Assembly: GCA_027459505.1 (NCBI GenBank)
Contig: DAIDIE010000020.1
Span: 62,001-126,000, forward strand
DNA from: Acidobacteriota bacterium
Lineage (GTDB): Bacteria > Acidobacteriota > Terriglobia > Terriglobales > SCQP01
Length of the DNA stretch: 64,000 nt
Reading direction: 5' to 3'
The translations under genes were made by a program, and so were the position numbers. Under the pieces are notes generated by a model. The model did no database searches. It saw nothing but the letters and a program-made list of their open reading frames with translations, and had not been told where the DNA came from. Position 1 is the first letter of the stretch; each line of letters starts with the position of its first letter. Below, piece by piece: positions 3,839 through 46,848 of this stretch.

Positions 3839-3944
3839 GAGGGCTCCTGAACTGCGGTGCTGGTCATTATAGCCCGCCCCCGCCAGGGGATGGCTTACGC
3901 GGGTTGGCACCAGACGCGCCAGAGCCGAGTCGAACTGCTTTCCA

Positions 3945-4234
3945 GTTCGAAATCGCAGGCCAAAGTGAAAGCAAATGTTCGGGGTTGCCGTTTAGGTCCC
4001 GCACCGCTGGCGACGCCCGAGTTCGTCACCAGGCGAGTCGCTGGCACGGAGAAGAGTGCGGCTTTTCTCAACAGAAAAAGCCGCATGCCGCTAGAGCGCA
4101 GAAGCGCTGTTGTGTGACGAACTCGGGCTAGTAAAGCGCGGCCACCATCCGTGAGCTTCGGCCGGGGTCCCCGCGCCGCGCCGCGCGACTTGGGGTGGGG
4201 CCGGACACCGAAGCGGGTGGAATAAAAGCGGCCG
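3945..4234. repeat. Dispersed intergenic repeat, copy A (interrupted)
   Basis: The 469-base gap 3839-4307 contains no convincing gene. Its ends match a second element at 45759-45872: GTTCGAAATCGCAGGCC here against GTTCGAAAGCGCAGGCC there, then GCACCGCTGGCGAC against GCACCGCTCGCGAC, then a GGACACCGAAGCGGGTGGAA block against GGACACTGGAGCGGATGGAA, each followed by TAAAAGCGG. In copy A the element is split by the palindromic insert at 4015-4128 and further diverged sequence. The conserved 3' block ends 74 bases before the start of the next gene, so a promoter or leader role is possible. No transposase is present. Confidence 0.55.
4015..4128. repeat. Palindromic insert with 15-bp terminal inverted repeats
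   Basis: Arms 4015-4029 and 4114-4128 are perfect 15-bp inverted repeats (GCCCGAGTTCGTCAC). Inside lies a second dyad, TGCGGCTTTT (4057-4066) with AAAAGCCGCA (4076-4085). The whole is 114 bases and non-coding. It looks like a small non-autonomous mobile or REP-like element inside dispersed repeat copy A. No target-site duplication is obvious. Confidence 0.55.
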
Positions 4235-4307
4235 TGCCGCCTTGCGGCAACTCCTCCGCAACATCCCTTGTCGGGTTCGCATCCGAACCAAACACAGGAG
4301 AGGACCC

Positions 4308-21057: not shown

Positions 21058-22404
21058 TTAATTTACGGTAAGGCCAACATTGGCGGTGCTGCTGTCGCCA
21101 CTGACCGTGTAGGCGGTAACCGTCAGGCTGTAGTTTCCCGCCGGGGTGCCGCTGGCCGTATTGACGGAGGGGGTGGTGGGTGACGAGCTTCCCCCACCAC
21201 AGCCGCTGAAGGTCAGCATCAGGGCCGCGAGTCCGGCCATGGCAAGCGCCGGAGCGAGAGCGTAACGGCGCCGCGCCCAGGGTAGAGCGGCCAACAGCAG
21301 TCCGCCGATGCCCACCAGGAGCGCCACAGGGAGAAGCGGTTCACGTGGGCCCGCTGCCGGCGGAGCGCCCAGCAGATCACTATGGGCGGTGGTGGTGACG
21401 GTTAAGGTCGCGGTTGCGGTGCTGGAGCTGGTGAAGTCCACCACGTTGGGCGAGATCGAACAGCTTGCTTGTGCGGGCGCTCCGCTGCACTGCAGATAAA
21501 CCTTTCCGGAACCCAACGTGCCGGAAAGTTGCAGTTGGGAGGTGCCATTGCTGCCGGCATTGACTGTGATGCTGGAGCCCGTGATCGCCGGGCCCGCTAT
21601 CGCGGCCGCCTGGTAGACACGCACGTAATCCACGTACATCGAGGCGGGAAATACTGTCGTGGGAGCCACCGCGCCGCCCCAGCTGCCACCCACGGCCAAG
21701 TTGAGGATAAAGAAGAAGGGATTCGACTTGTCGTCAAAGGGCCAGTAGGTGGTTCCGGCCGGCGGCGTAAACGATTCGACGATATTGCTGGGGCTATCAA
21801 GGTAGTACTGCACCAGGCCCGGCGACCAGATGATGCCGTAGATGTGGAACTGGCCGTCGACGGTCTCGCCGCTGGGCAGAGCGGTGGGACTGCCTCCGTT
21901 GTAGCCGGTGGCGTGGATGCTGGCCTGGTAATTGGTATCGCCAAGCTGGCTGACGCTCTCCATGATGTCCAGTTCGCCGCATTGCGGCCAGGAGGCGGTG
22001 GTGATATCGCTGCCCAGCATCCAGAAGGCGGGCCAGAGCCCGGCACCAAAAGGCAGTTTGATGTTGGCCTCGGCGCGACCGTACCGGAAGGTGAACAGTC
22101 CCTGCGTCTTGATGCGCGCCGACGTGTAGCTGCCATCGGGGTTCTTGATGGCGGTGATCACCAGGTTACCGTTGCCGTCCATGGCGGCGTTAGCGGTGCT
22201 GTTGGTGTAGGTTTCCAGTTCGTTGTTGCCCCAGCCACCCCCGCCCAGGTCATAGGTCCACTTCGAACTGTCAGGAGGGGTGCCGGCGGCGCCATTGAAC
22301 TCATCGCTCCAGACCAGGTTCCAGGTCACTTGAGCATGCAAACGGGTAGCGGCAAGAACCAGCAGAGCGGCGCACAGGACCAAACGGGAAAGGGAGCGGG
22401 ACAT
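21058..22404 (-). CDS. Glycoside hydrolase family 16 protein with membrane segment and Ig-like tail
   Basis: 448 residues. A signal peptide (to about residue 24) precedes a GH16 catalytic domain (about 28-270) with the catalytic box GELDIMES (nucleophile and acid/base Glu) and WSDEFNG, FWMLGS, YVDYVRVYQ. Family members with this box are mostly endo-beta-1,3(4)-glucanases (laminarinases). After an Ig-like region comes a membrane segment (VALLVGIGGLLLAALPW), a second one (ALAMAGLAALMLTF), then SGCGGGSSSP and a short Ig-like tail. The SGC could serve as an internal lipobox, which would be unusual. Probably secreted or surface-bound and used for glucan degradation. Confidence 0.87.
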   Translation of the reverse strand: MSRSLSRLVLCAALLVLAATRLHAQVTWNLVWSDEFNGAAGTPPDSSKWTYDLGGGGWGNNELETYTNSTANAAMDGNGNLVITAIKNPDGSYTSARIKTQGLFTFRYGRAEANIKLPFGAGLWPAFWMLGSDITTASWPQCGELDIMESVSQLGDTNYQASIHATGYNGGSPTALPSGETVDGQFHIYGIIWSPGLVQYYLDSPSNIVESFTPPAGTTYWPFDDKSNPFFFILNLAVGGSWGGAVAPTTVFPASMYVDYVRVYQAAAIAGPAITGSSITVNAGSNGTSQLQLSGTLGSGKVYLQCSGAPAQASCSISPNVVDFTSSSTATATLTVTTTAHSDLLGAPPAAGPREPLLPVALLVGIGGLLLAALPWARRRYALAPALAMAGLAALMLTFSGCGGGSSSPTTPSVNTASGTPAGNYSLTVTAYTVSGDSSTANVGLTVN

Positions 22405-22537
22405 GGGGGCAGAGCACCTTTGGTGTAATAGAAATCTTAGGCATTGTACGGCAGGAACTCTGCACGGCGGACAAAGAAAAAGCGTTTTGGCAATTTACAG
22501 CGTTACAGTTTTTCCGGGCGGTAAAGGCGTAAGCAGG

Positions 22538-23512
22538 CTAGAGGGCCGGATGCCTGAGGCGGCGCCGCCAGCGCGCCCAGTGCCCGGCGCCAAAGCCATG
22601 TCCCAGGCCCTCGACGTGCCCGGCCTGGATGCTGAGAATGCCGCCAGCACAGATCAGCCCTGTGCCAAAGAGCGCGCCCAGTCCAGGCACATTGCCAAAC
22701 ATCAGCCAGCCCAGTACGCCCGAGAAGACCACGACAGTGTAGTTGAAGGGGGAGAGCTCAGAGGCACTGGCGCGACGGTAGGCCGCGATAATCAGGTATT
22801 GCGTGGCGGCATAAAGAACGCCGATCAGCAGCAGCAGGGTCCAGGTGCGCGCGGAGAGAGGCCGCCACTGCTCGATAGCGAGTGGAATCAGCAGCAGCGT
22901 GGCCACTCCAAAGTTATAGAGCAGAATGCGCATTGCCGGTTCCGTGCTGGTGAGAGCGTTGGTGGCGACCAGCGCCAGGGCGGAGAAAAAGGCCGCTGCG
23001 AGTGCAATCGCGGAGGCGGGATGGCGAAACATGGCCGCGCCGGGATGCAGCATGAGGACAACCCCCGCCAGTCCAATCAACAGGCTCACCGCCACCAGCG
23101 GCTGAACGCGTTTCCGGAACCAGACCAGCACGACCAGGGGAATGAACAAGGGCGCGGCGTTTGAAAGCAGCACCGCGTCGAGGAGAGGGATCGAACGAAC
23201 CGCGATAAAAAACAGCAATTGGCAGATCGCGCCGGAGAGGCTGCGCAGCAGATGCAGCGGGAAGCGTCTGGTTCTCAGCAACGAAAAGCGGTGCAGGGTG
23301 GGAAGGAAAACCAGAAAGCTGATGGCGTACTGCGTGAACAGCAGCAATAGGGGTGGGGCCTGGGTGGCCTGCTTGCTCAACGCGCTCATCAGCGCCGCGC
23401 AGAAGAATGCGGAACTGATCAGGGCCACTCCGGCCAACAGGTTATGCCGGAGCGGGGCGGTTTTCCCGGCCAGGGTTCCGCCGCCGCTGTCGATCGCTTG
23501 CCTGTTCTCCAT
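22538..23512 (-). CDS. EamA/DMT-superfamily transporter
   Basis: 324 residues with about ten membrane segments in two repeated halves of EamA type (GLAGVVLMLHPG; PFNYTVVVFSGVLGWLMFGNVPGLGALFGTGLICAGGI is the matching C-terminal region). Such proteins export metabolites or amino acids. The start at 23512 lies 9 bases after the stop of the alpha/beta hydrolase gene, so both are one operon. Confidence 0.88.
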   Translation of the reverse strand: MENRQAIDSGGGTLAGKTAPLRHNLLAGVALISSAFFCAALMSALSKQATQAPPLLLLFTQYAISFLVFLPTLHRFSLLRTRRFPLHLLRSLSGAICQLLFFIAVRSIPLLDAVLLSNAAPLFIPLVVLVWFRKRVQPLVAVSLLIGLAGVVLMLHPGAAMFRHPASAIALAAAFFSALALVATNALTSTEPAMRILLYNFGVATLLLIPLAIEQWRPLSARTWTLLLLIGVLYAATQYLIIAAYRRASASELSPFNYTVVVFSGVLGWLMFGNVPGLGALFGTGLICAGGILSIQAGHVEGLGHGFGAGHWARWRRRLRHPAL

Positions 23513-44684: not shown

Positions 44685-45626
44685 TCAAGCCTGGGCGTAA
44701 TGGGCGTGAGTAGCCGTTTCGTGCAGTGGCGCCAGCGCCGCGCTGTGGTTGGGAACCACCAACACTGGGCAGGGCGCGCTGTGAATCACATTGCTTAGCC
44801 GTCCACCCCCGAAAGGCAGCCACCAGCCCTGCTCGTGCGCCCCCATCACAATAAGGCTGGCCTGTCGCCGCTGCGCTTCCTCCACAATGGCGGCGCTGAC
44901 ATCGCGACCGTGCACGACGACGTTTTCCGCTGTGGCGCCGGCATCAATTGGCAGCACTTCCAACCGCAGCCGCTCCAATTCGCGGGTGAGCGTATCGGTC
45001 TCGTTGATGACCTCTGGCGCGGGGTTCCCGATCCAGGAGGGGCGTACGACATGCAGCAACGTCAGTGCGGATTGATGACTATGGGCCAGGCTGAACGCCA
45101 CTTGCGCGGCAGCGTAGTGAACCATGTCCGTGGGACACAGAATCCGGGGCAGTTGCAGGGGCGCGCGGCGCCCGGCTCTTGGGCCAACTACCCACGCGGG
45201 AGCGCCGGCGTGGCGAAAGATGGTGGCGGCCGTGGAACCGGCCAGCAATCCTTCCCAGCCAAGCCTCCCCTCCGAACCCATGACAATCAGGTCAATGTGG
45301 AACTGGGCCGTGAGCTCCTGTGCGGCGCGCACCGGTGACATCCGCTCCAGCCAAATGTGGTGATCAACGTCACGCAACTCGGGCCCGTCCAGGTTGTGCA
45401 GCAACGCCTGCGCGGAGTGCAGCAGTTCGTCCCGCAGCATGGCCGCTCCATCTGCCACCATCCAGCGGTAACGGCCCAGATCGAAGGCATGCGCGATGTG
45501 CAATGTCGCCCCGTATTGGCGCGCCAGCGCCACCGCATGGGGAAAGGCGTCCCGCGCGACCGCCGAGAAGTCGGTCAGGTAGAGGATCTGCCTGGGTCTG
45601 AACGGCAGCGAGTTGAGGATGGCCAT
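44685..45626 (-). CDS. Universal stress protein, tandem UspA domains
   Basis: 313 residues. ILYLTDFSAVARDAFPHAVALARQYG begins the first UspA domain; LIVMGSEGRLGWEGLLAGSTAATIFRHAGAP its C-terminus. The second (ILCPTDMVHYAAAQVA) ends with LIVMGAHEQGWWLPFGGGRLSNVIHSAPCPVLVVP, keeping a G-rich nucleotide loop. The start at 45626 has a perfect AGGAGG. Closely related to 41195-42079, so the two probably arose by duplication within the island. Confidence 0.9.
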   Translation of the reverse strand: MAILNSLPFRPRQILYLTDFSAVARDAFPHAVALARQYGATLHIAHAFDLGRYRWMVADGAAMLRDELLHSAQALLHNLDGPELRDVDHHIWLERMSPVRAAQELTAQFHIDLIVMGSEGRLGWEGLLAGSTAATIFRHAGAPAWVVGPRAGRRAPLQLPRILCPTDMVHYAAAQVAFSLAHSHQSALTLLHVVRPSWIGNPAPEVINETDTLTRELERLRLEVLPIDAGATAENVVVHGRDVSAAIVEEAQRRQASLIVMGAHEQGWWLPFGGGRLSNVIHSAPCPVLVVPNHSAALAPLHETATHAHYAQA

Positions 45627-45710
45627 GTTTCCTCCTTCGAGCGTGCGCATACAGTAAGCAAGCCGGACGCAGTCCTCGTGCAAGAAACGGGAGCGTGCCG
45701 GAAAAGCCAT

Positions 45711-45726
45711 TGCACGCAAGTGTCCA
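45711..45726 (-). promoter_or_regulatory. Weak sigma-54 type site upstream of Usp gene
   Basis: On the minus strand TGGACACTTGCGTGCA keeps GG and GC twelve bases apart but the -24 box is TGGAC, not TGGCA. A transcript from here would have a leader of ~75 bases to the Usp start at 45626. Confidence 0.35.
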
Positions 45727-45758
45727 ATCCGTCGAGCGCTGGGTCCGGCTGGATGTGA

Positions 45759-45872
45759 GTTCGAAAGCGCAGGCCGAAAAGGTCCGGGGTTAAGGTTAAG
45801 CTTCCGCACCGCTCGCGACTGCTACGCGGCCTGGGGTGGGCCGGACACTGGAGCGGATGGAATAAAAGCGGG
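45759..45872. repeat. Dispersed intergenic repeat, copy B (uninterrupted)
   Basis: Matches copy A (3945-4234) over its start (GTTCGAAAGCGCAGGCC), middle (GCACCGCTCGCGAC) and end (GGTGGGCCGGACACTGGAGC then GGATGGAATAAAAGCGG). Copy B lacks the 114-base palindromic insert and is 114 bases in total. It lies in the gene-free interval 45627-46095, between two divergent genes of the stress island. Function unknown; no coding capacity. Confidence 0.55.
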
Positions 45873-46048
45873 CCGCGGCGCCCGTGCGCCGCTGTGGAGC
45901 AGCATTCTCCGTGGCGCAGCTATATCCCTTCGCGATCCCTTCCGCCACTGCGCGAAAATGCCACCCCGTGCGGGCTAGTACGCAGGAGAAGCAGGAAAGA
46001 CTTGAATTTCCGGAGCGGCGAACCACTGGGCGCGGAACGATATGCCTT

Positions 46049-46095: not shown

Positions 46096-46848
46096 ATGAG
46101 CGCAGCCGCCATCAAAACCGTTCAGGAAATCGTTTTACAGACCCCCTCCGCCATTCCTCTGTTTGAATCGCTGGGCATCGATTATTGCTGCGGCGGAGAG
46201 CGCACGCTGGCCGAAGCCTGCGCTCGTGCGGAAGTGGACGAGCCGGAGGTCTCCGGCCGGTTGGCGCGACTGAACAATCCGCCGCACAGCCCCGAGCTTT
46301 TCCTCACGATTCCTCTCTCGCTGCTGGTGCGCCACATCGTGGAAGCGCATCACGTGCAGGCGCGCGAACAGCTGCAGCTCCTCAGCTTGTTAGGGGCGCG
46401 CGCGGTGCGCACCGCCGGAGCGCGGCATCCCCGCCTGTATCGTATTCGCGAGCAGATGGCCGACCTGGCCGATGAATTTTCCGTGCACATGCTGAAAGAG
46501 GAGCGCGTGCTGTTTCCCTACATTGAGCGGCTCGATGAGAGCGCCGCCTCCCACATGCGTTTGCCGCTGCACAGCTTCCGCGGTTTGGGCATCCAGTTGC
46601 GCGTCATGCGCCATGAGCACGATGTCACCACTCAACTAGCCGACGCCCTTGCCAGCGCGCTCGCGCAGGTGCTCAGCGAAAGCGCCTCGTCCAGCCACGA
46701 ACGCCAGCAGCCATGCGCCGCGGTCCGGGAACTCGCCGAAGCCTTTGAAACCTGGCGTAAGGCGCTGCACCTGCATTTGCATTTGGAAAACAACGTGCTT
46801 TTCCCGCGCGCTGAGCGGCTGGAAGAGGAACTCGCGCTAGGTAGATAG
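46096..46848 (+). CDS. RIC (ScdA-type) iron-sulfur cluster repair protein, copy 2
   Basis: 250 residues. N-terminal GIDYCCGGERTL is the canonical CCGG form of the ScdA/YtfE N-domain. The hemerythrin-like domain has HIVEAHH, SVHMLKEE, RHEHD and HLHLHLENN as di-iron ligands. Expected to repair Fe-S clusters damaged by nitric oxide or peroxide. The ATG at 46096 is where homology begins; an upstream ATG at 46042 would place the start before the candidate sigma-54 promoter, which argues against it. Confidence 0.92.
   Translation: MSAAAIKTVQEIVLQTPSAIPLFESLGIDYCCGGERTLAEACARAEVDEPEVSGRLARLNNPPHSPELFLTIPLSLLVRHIVEAHHVQAREQLQLLSLLGARAVRTAGARHPRLYRIREQMADLADEFSVHMLKEERVLFPYIERLDESAASHMRLPLHSFRGLGIQLRVMRHEHDVTTQLADALASALAQVLSESASSSHERQQPCAAVRELAEAFETWRKALHLHLHLENNVLFPRAERLEEELALGR

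Follow-up and report, generated by a model that had tools for sequence, protein, structure and literature searches.

A dispersed family of hairpin-built elements inserted beside a C-starting tetranucleotide in Acidobacteriota genomes

Results

Two related elements in the window

The stretch of DNA analysed in this study (the window, 64 kb) corresponds to positions 62001-126000 of contig C37 in a 4.06-Mb draft genome of 45 contigs, hereafter G000. Two related elements, copies A and B, were identified in the window, and the two genes adjoining copy B lie outside the element:

3910-3913, forward strand: tetranucleotide CCAG flanking the left end of copy A, with the C at position -4 that is the rule in the family
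3914-4240, forward strand: copy A, a full-length element carrying both optional modules
3930-3950, forward strand: hairpin H1 of copy A (TCGAACT / AGTTCGA), which covaries in the family
4015-4128, forward strand: optional inner module of copy A, 114 bp, with a 15-bp inverted repeat (GCCCGAGTTCGTCAC / GTGACGAACTCGGGC) at its borders
4164-4202, forward strand: optional hairpin module of copy A, 39 bp
4228-4240, forward strand: terminal hairpin of copy A, GCGGC CGT GCCGC, with CCGC as its last tetranucleotide
44685-45626, reverse strand: universal stress protein (Usp) gene (PF00582, E = 2.5e-44), for which the ATG start at 45626 was chosen among longer frames
45727-45880, forward strand: copy B, diverged and shortened, without the optional modules, both ends approximate
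46096-46848, forward strand: gene for a protein with ScdA_N (PF04405, E = 6.3e-17) and hemerythrin (PF01814, E = 6.1e-13) domains

A covariance model (R1) trained on 42 copies, A and B not among them, matched copy A with E = 5.5e-22 and copy B with E = 4.2e-8 in the window, and the blocks that an earlier note had seen to be shared by the two loci are thus real and far beyond chance. Copy A ends in GCGGCCGTGCCGC, as do most of the 79 full-length copies described below. In copy B, the covariance-model match covers 45727-45819 and the 3' block lies at 45843-45871; it is an old, diverged and shortened member of the family. The earlier note had placed the copies at 3945-4234 and 45759-45872, which we correct to 3914-4240 and about 45727-45880, and the position 44685 from which it started is the 3' end of the neighboring Usp gene and not a start of the element. 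Its view that B is intact and A split has to be reversed, because A possesses both family ends and both optional modules. The window also contains a tRNA gene at 2098-2181, the sole Rfam match in it at gathering thresholds.

Family size and anatomy

Copies A and B belong to a family of at least 138 dispersed, hairpin-rich elements in G000. As the earlier note had proposed, copy B was searched against the genome, and further copies were recovered (at least 49 matching stretches when 40 candidates out of 159 had been scored). A 29-base pattern of the 3'-end block, allowing up to three mismatches, matched 91 times in G000 and a 23-base pattern of the 5' part 128 times, with no match for either reversed control. 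Profile search and chaining then yielded 138 copies in 485 kb, that is, in the stretches around most pattern matches; 79 of them are full length, 29 consist of the 5' end only, 25 of the 3' end only, and five are of other form. This number is an undercount, since 20 additional blocks away from the known copies gave eight more weak matches.

The basic element is 174 bp long and has sharp ends, with the consensus start ACGAGCCAGGGCCGAG and the consensus end AAAAGCGGCCGTGCCGC. Sizes range from 174 to 189 bp and reach about 400 bp where optional hairpin modules are present. According to a strict text pattern, which misses the diverged hairpin module of copy A itself, the inner module with its inverted-repeat borders is present in 16 of the 79 full-length copies, and the 39-bp hairpin module occurs once or twice in 19. 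Three hairpin modules in tandem can be read from the sequence of the copy at L030. In a comparison of 25 hairpin modules, the arms match fully in twelve, which are of four kinds (AAG/CTT in five, ACG/CGT in four, TAG/CTA in two, and ATG/CAT in one), differ by a G-T pair in nine (GAG/CTT in six and GCG/CGT in three), and match less well in four. Copying of one arm of the palindrome from the other could equally be the source of these matched changes. An enlarged relative was also noted on contig C10 of G000 (22369-23420), in which a 519-bp hairpin-rich stretch separates the 5' and 3' parts and is followed by a second 3' part.

Relatives in other genomes

None of the 59 relatives searched contained a 24-base 3' pattern, and a 174-base query matched two of 298 genomes, G000 and G006, the latter a MAG from a sister genus of the same bacterial family. 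A query taken from G006, for which 40 candidates out of 350 were scored, then found at least 41 matching stretches that were some 130 bases long or longer. In G006, 81 copies were counted in 1.06 Mb (53 blocks of 20 kb on five contigs), corresponding to about 290 copies per genome, an estimate that may be high because these contigs were known beforehand to contain copies. Among the genome contigs scanned, a set that may omit the window's own genome, a 21-base core pattern occurred only in Acidobacteria bacterium isolate YP1.bin64, and it had no exact match in viral contigs.

A covariance model of the 5' domain matched five of 397 genomes of the order, all of them in the window's family and representing three genera (G000; G001 and G006; G003 and G008). 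The matches in G008 are weak, and by eye only one of three resembles the element. The occurrence in relatives about which the earlier note had asked is therefore that of a related family in sister genera of the same bacterial family. In some G006 copies (L080, L085, L086, and L093) the loop of H1 holds a different hairpin (GGCAATTTC..GAAATTGCC), which indicates that modules are swapped at different places in G000 and G006.

Conserved hairpins

The 5' domain consists of hairpin H1 inside an outer helix and of a second hairpin, H2. Palindromes thus lie near both ends of the element, H1 beginning at about position 17 and the terminal hairpin forming the last 13 bases. In 42 copies from G000 and G006, 96.1% of cells pair, and two-sided changes occur in 37 cells versus 14.9 in shuffled alignments; the number of pairs with two-sided change (three) is not unusual, as judged from 116 of 500 shuffles. 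In 16 copies from G000, G001, G003, and G006, 93.4% of cells pair and six pairs change on both sides, a number reached by 14 of 500 shuffles, and the covariation score over the four genomes is 0.235 versus 0.121 for shuffled data. One pair of H1 appears as G-C, A-U, and C-G across these 16 copies, in which the count of further pair types (17) is not unusual against shuffles. Pair types that differ between genomes carry more weight here than the shuffle counts, because related sequences can beat shuffles without any structure. Across the four genomes, which represent three genera, paired changes preserve the 5' hairpins, and the covariation that the earlier note had proposed to look for is indeed present.

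Changes in the stems of neither genome prefer G-U over A-C pairs. The ratio of wobble-keeping to wobble-breaking changes is 18:7 at paired versus 47:20 at unpaired positions in G006, and 6:12 versus 67:98 in G000; nothing in these stems therefore indicates RNA rather than DNA.

Insertion sites and movement

The left flank of the element is dominated by one base. Among the 66 left ends of G000 with the start motif, position -4 is C in 62 (the C background there is 31%), position -3 is C or A in 49, position -2 is T or A in 52, and position -1 is nearly free; among the 80 right ends with the end motif, position +1 is C or T in 65. The same C at -4 precedes 32 of 36 left ends in G006 and 15 of 16 further ones, and it was found at all eight of the 11 loci in G001, G003, and G008 whose 5' end could be placed by eye (L230, L235, and L244 were left out). 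The last four bases of the element are CCGC. In 73 copies with both ends, no target-site duplication was detected at any length from 3 to 9 bp, and two-base flank matches were seen in nine (null mean 4.8, null maximum 11). Terminal inverted repeats were not found either, with terminal identities of 4/10 and 3/10 and local scores that 30% and 10% of shuffles equaled or exceeded.

The most direct evidence of movement comes from three full G006 copies nested in other copies (C22:322, C43:7624, and C36:27415). To their left stand CCTA, CCAA, and CCTA, and joining the flanks restores the host copy with no base gained or lost, apart from two substitutions near the junction on C36. One further candidate, at position 1829 of the G000 contig C34 stretch that starts at 130200, was not counted because its host lacks four bases. 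In addition, the syntenic 30 kb of G001 lacks three copies that lie on G006 contig C3 (24-31 kb); the empty-site junctions cannot be placed there base by base because the intergenic DNA has diverged too far. The element is mobile and dispersed, and it inserts 3' of a C-starting tetranucleotide.

The three copies on C3 lie between large genes, and G001 has the same genes without the copies. A prophage origin of this stretch, guessed by eye, is not supported by Pfam (no match for two proteins) or PHROGs (no match for three proteins).

Orientation along contigs

Copies tend to point the same way along a contig. In G000, 119 of 136 copies share the orientation that prevails on their contig (null mean 90.7, maximum 110 in 100,000 draws), and in G006 this applies to 78 of 87 (null mean 57.2, maximum 70 in 100,000 draws). 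The bias is weaker in G006 blocks taken regardless of copies, where five contigs together give 64 of 81 and C12 alone 13 to 7, and contigs C28 and C29 contain local blocks of opposite orientation. The orientation bias suggests a coupling to replication.

In G006, the top strand of the element is on the strand of negative GC skew (mean -0.0595, p = 0.0036) and runs against the prevailing gene direction (p = 0.0068). If an excess of G marks the leading strand, this sign is opposite to that expected for top-strand movement on the lagging template, the simplest IS608 model. No significant relation to GC skew was found in G000 (p = 0.21), where skew per contig is noisy and changed sign between analyses.

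Candidate enzymes

On balance, we consider it probable, with considerable room for doubt, that A and B are copies of a hairpin-built, non-autonomous single-strand-DNA mobile element moved by an HUH-type (Y1-like) nuclease. The family is read in this way because palindromic elements derived from IS200/IS605 (PATEs and REPs) behave likewise. In IS200/IS605, according to the sections of the paper cited here, recognition involves two tetranucleotides, one that flanks the left end and one that closes the right end, and movement is single-stranded and coupled to replication (PMC6006769). By analogy, the element would move as single-stranded DNA at the replication fork; the nuclease, acting in trans, would recognise the 5' hairpins and the terminal hairpin, cut on the left behind the flanking C-N-N-N and on the right behind the terminal CCGC, and paste the cut strand behind another C-N-N-N. 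If neighboring genes are affected at all, for instance because the terminal hairpin, read on the other strand, terminates weakly, this would be incidental.

The Y1 profile PF01797 identified 13 loci in eight of 14 genomes searched, two of them in G000, and found no match in G006, G003, or G008; the genomes searched are drafts with remaining gaps. None of the 13 loci, including the two Y1 genes of G000, carries the ends or a copy of the element, and a Y1 transposase as its local partner was rejected. One Y1 transposase gene of G000 (C42:123703) has flanking palindromes of its own (..CCCACTCAAC..), unlike the repeat studied here. Motif scans yielded no HUH-like frame in 1.06 Mb of G006, and no class 3-like or further HUH-like frame at the examined loci, with patterns that matched only nine of the 13 known Y1 loci. 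The absence of Y2 matches in the 14 genomes carries little weight, since control genomes gave none either. Solitary 5' and 3' ends that form pairs in G000 were also inspected for an autonomous copy between them, and no recognisable transposase was seen: gaps of 62-91 bp fall inside the inner module, that of 519 bp on C10 is hairpin-rich, and one of 2055 bp on C18 holds, by eye, the start of an apparent GTPase gene. Unassembled transposase genes, a lost autonomous copy, or too weak a profile could explain the missing enzyme.

The lack of a Y1 match in three of the genomes would also fit movement by another duplication-free enzyme outside the HUH class, be it a serine or tyrosine recombinase, an IS110-type DEDD enzyme, or an undescribed one. 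However, IS110-type genes have the wrong distribution over the genomes for a mover (one in G000 and none in G001, G003, G006, or G008), the C-N-N-N on the left and the lack of a core common to both junctions are unlike recombinase cores, and the orientation bias fits single-strand movement. We regard such an enzyme as an unlikely but serious candidate.

More speculative, and in our view rather improbable, is that the family stands for a class of modular single-strand-DNA mobile element not yet described, with a mover of no known transposase type, hairpin modules exchanged as structural domains, and an insertion rule fixed over three genera. In G006, where some 290 copies are estimated and the profiles used reveal neither a Y1 nor an IS110-type gene, the cutting would then fall to an HUH-like enzyme that escaped recognition or to a replication or repair enzyme of the host.

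The conserved, covarying hairpins could alternatively belong to a structured transcript of which a reverse transcriptase makes a copy for insertion at forks, a SINE-like spread via RNA. G000 and G006 each encode one reverse transcriptase, yet the two are of different kinds: that of G000 (C39:90888-91292 and surroundings) is a 701-aa protein (PF00078) without Cas1, whereas that of G006 (C28:104801-105406 and surroundings) is a fusion with Cas1 beside a Cas6-type reading frame (Pfam). There is no reverse transcriptase match in G001, G003, or G008, no copy of the repeat lies in the examined flanks of either gene, and the stems show no G-U preference. A reverse transcriptase was rejected as the common mover, and we judge RNA-mediated spread to be very unlikely.

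Gene context

In G000, where 78.5% of the stretches are coding according to gene calls made with a simple custom codon scorer, 131 copies lie between genes, two lie inside genes, and five have no gene call on one side. The flanking genes are oriented nearly evenly around the copies (++ 41, -+ 31, -- 30, and +- 29), which speaks against a promoter or leader. The following gene is on the same strand as the element at both A and B, as the earlier note had observed, but this does not extend to the family, in which the downstream gene is on the element's own strand at 72 of 131 copies and not at 59.

A functional RNA, leader, or promoter cassette spread by selection would account for covarying hairpins, and the 3' end of the element does resemble an intrinsic terminator on the reverse strand, with one weak terminator-like site at B (0.6 expected by chance) and none at A. 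The gene orientations argue against it, as does the absence of any Rfam family matching the element in the window at gathering thresholds, and we consider this explanation highly improbable. The leader RNA of the earlier note is further disfavored by the stems, which lack a G-U preference. A scan for promoters of the sigma-70-like type showed none at A or B, although only 0.1-0.2 such sites were expected by chance.

A classical MITE moved by a DDE transposase, which the small, numerous, intergenic, and gene-free copies might recall, can practically be dismissed, because terminal inverted repeats and 3-9 bp duplications are absent and the nested insertions occurred without duplication. The term MITE-like in the earlier note remains apt insofar as the element is small, interspersed, and mobile and has no transposase gene; the element is not a classical MITE, since it lacks terminal inverted repeats and a target-site duplication of 3 bp or more.

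Discussion

Comparison with known elements

Several known systems resemble the single-strand-DNA element that we favor. PATEs of Haloquadratum walsbyi are described, in the part of the report cited, as lacking terminal inverted repeats and target duplication, having palindromes near their ends, and being too short for a transposase (PMC3119063). The element studied here is like them in its subterminal palindromes, in its lack of terminal inverted repeats and of target duplications of 3 bp or more, and in the absence of a transposase. It is unlike them in its optional inner modules and its conservation over three genera; moreover, the palindromes of PATEs relate to IS605-type transposons of that genome according to the same part of the report (PMC3119063), whereas no such transposon was found here.

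The element shares with IS200/IS605, as summarized in the cited sections of the paper, insertion beside a left-flanking tetranucleotide and subterminal hairpins (PMC6006769). It differs in that it carries no transposase and no matching autonomous copy was found, in its target, which is looser than the usual tetranucleotide, and in the strand sign of G006, which is opposite to the simplest expectation.

Class 3 TnpA-Y1 proteins have been reported from Acidobacteria, with flanking structures that have the foot CnGA and number about 600 in Solibacter usitatus (PMC6006769). REPs and these class 3 structures are, by the same paper, intergenic, high-copy hairpins with a 5' tetranucleotide foot (PMC6006769), as is the element studied here, in which CCGA directly precedes H2 in every one of the 16 rows aligned and stands before H1 in 12 of them. 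The match of CCGA to CnGA is a weak one of four bases, made to the published description and not to a class 3 sequence (PMC6006769). Unlike REPs and class 3 structures, the element is 174-189 bp long with several hairpins and defined ends, and the examined loci hold no class 3-like frame. The REPtron arrangement, in which the repeat flanks a tnpA-REP gene, was not seen at any of the 13 Y1 loci. By analogy, a class 3 TnpA-Y1 would nevertheless be the most attractive candidate mover and the lead to follow.

BOX elements of Streptococcus pneumoniae are described in the cited excerpt as built from end modules plus inner modules that vary in number (PMC3049150). The likeness to them lies in the modular plan; the modules and the phylum of BOX differ. 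In its workings the element is like a PATE or REP-type element, from which it is set apart in that no transposon sharing its ends was found at the 13 Y1 loci. An earlier description of the family was not recognised in the open-licence full-text literature on repeats and mobile elements of Acidobacteria.

Implications

In this family the mode of insertion can be read from the sequence while the enzyme is missing, through nested joins, a target dominated by one base, an orientation bias, and covarying ends. The question of what moves transposase-less palindromic repeats is thereby made directly testable. The family also carries a warning that such repeats, when they lie upstream of genes, can pass for leaders or riboswitches, and it illustrates how, within one bacterial family, a mobile element can gain and exchange hairpin modules.
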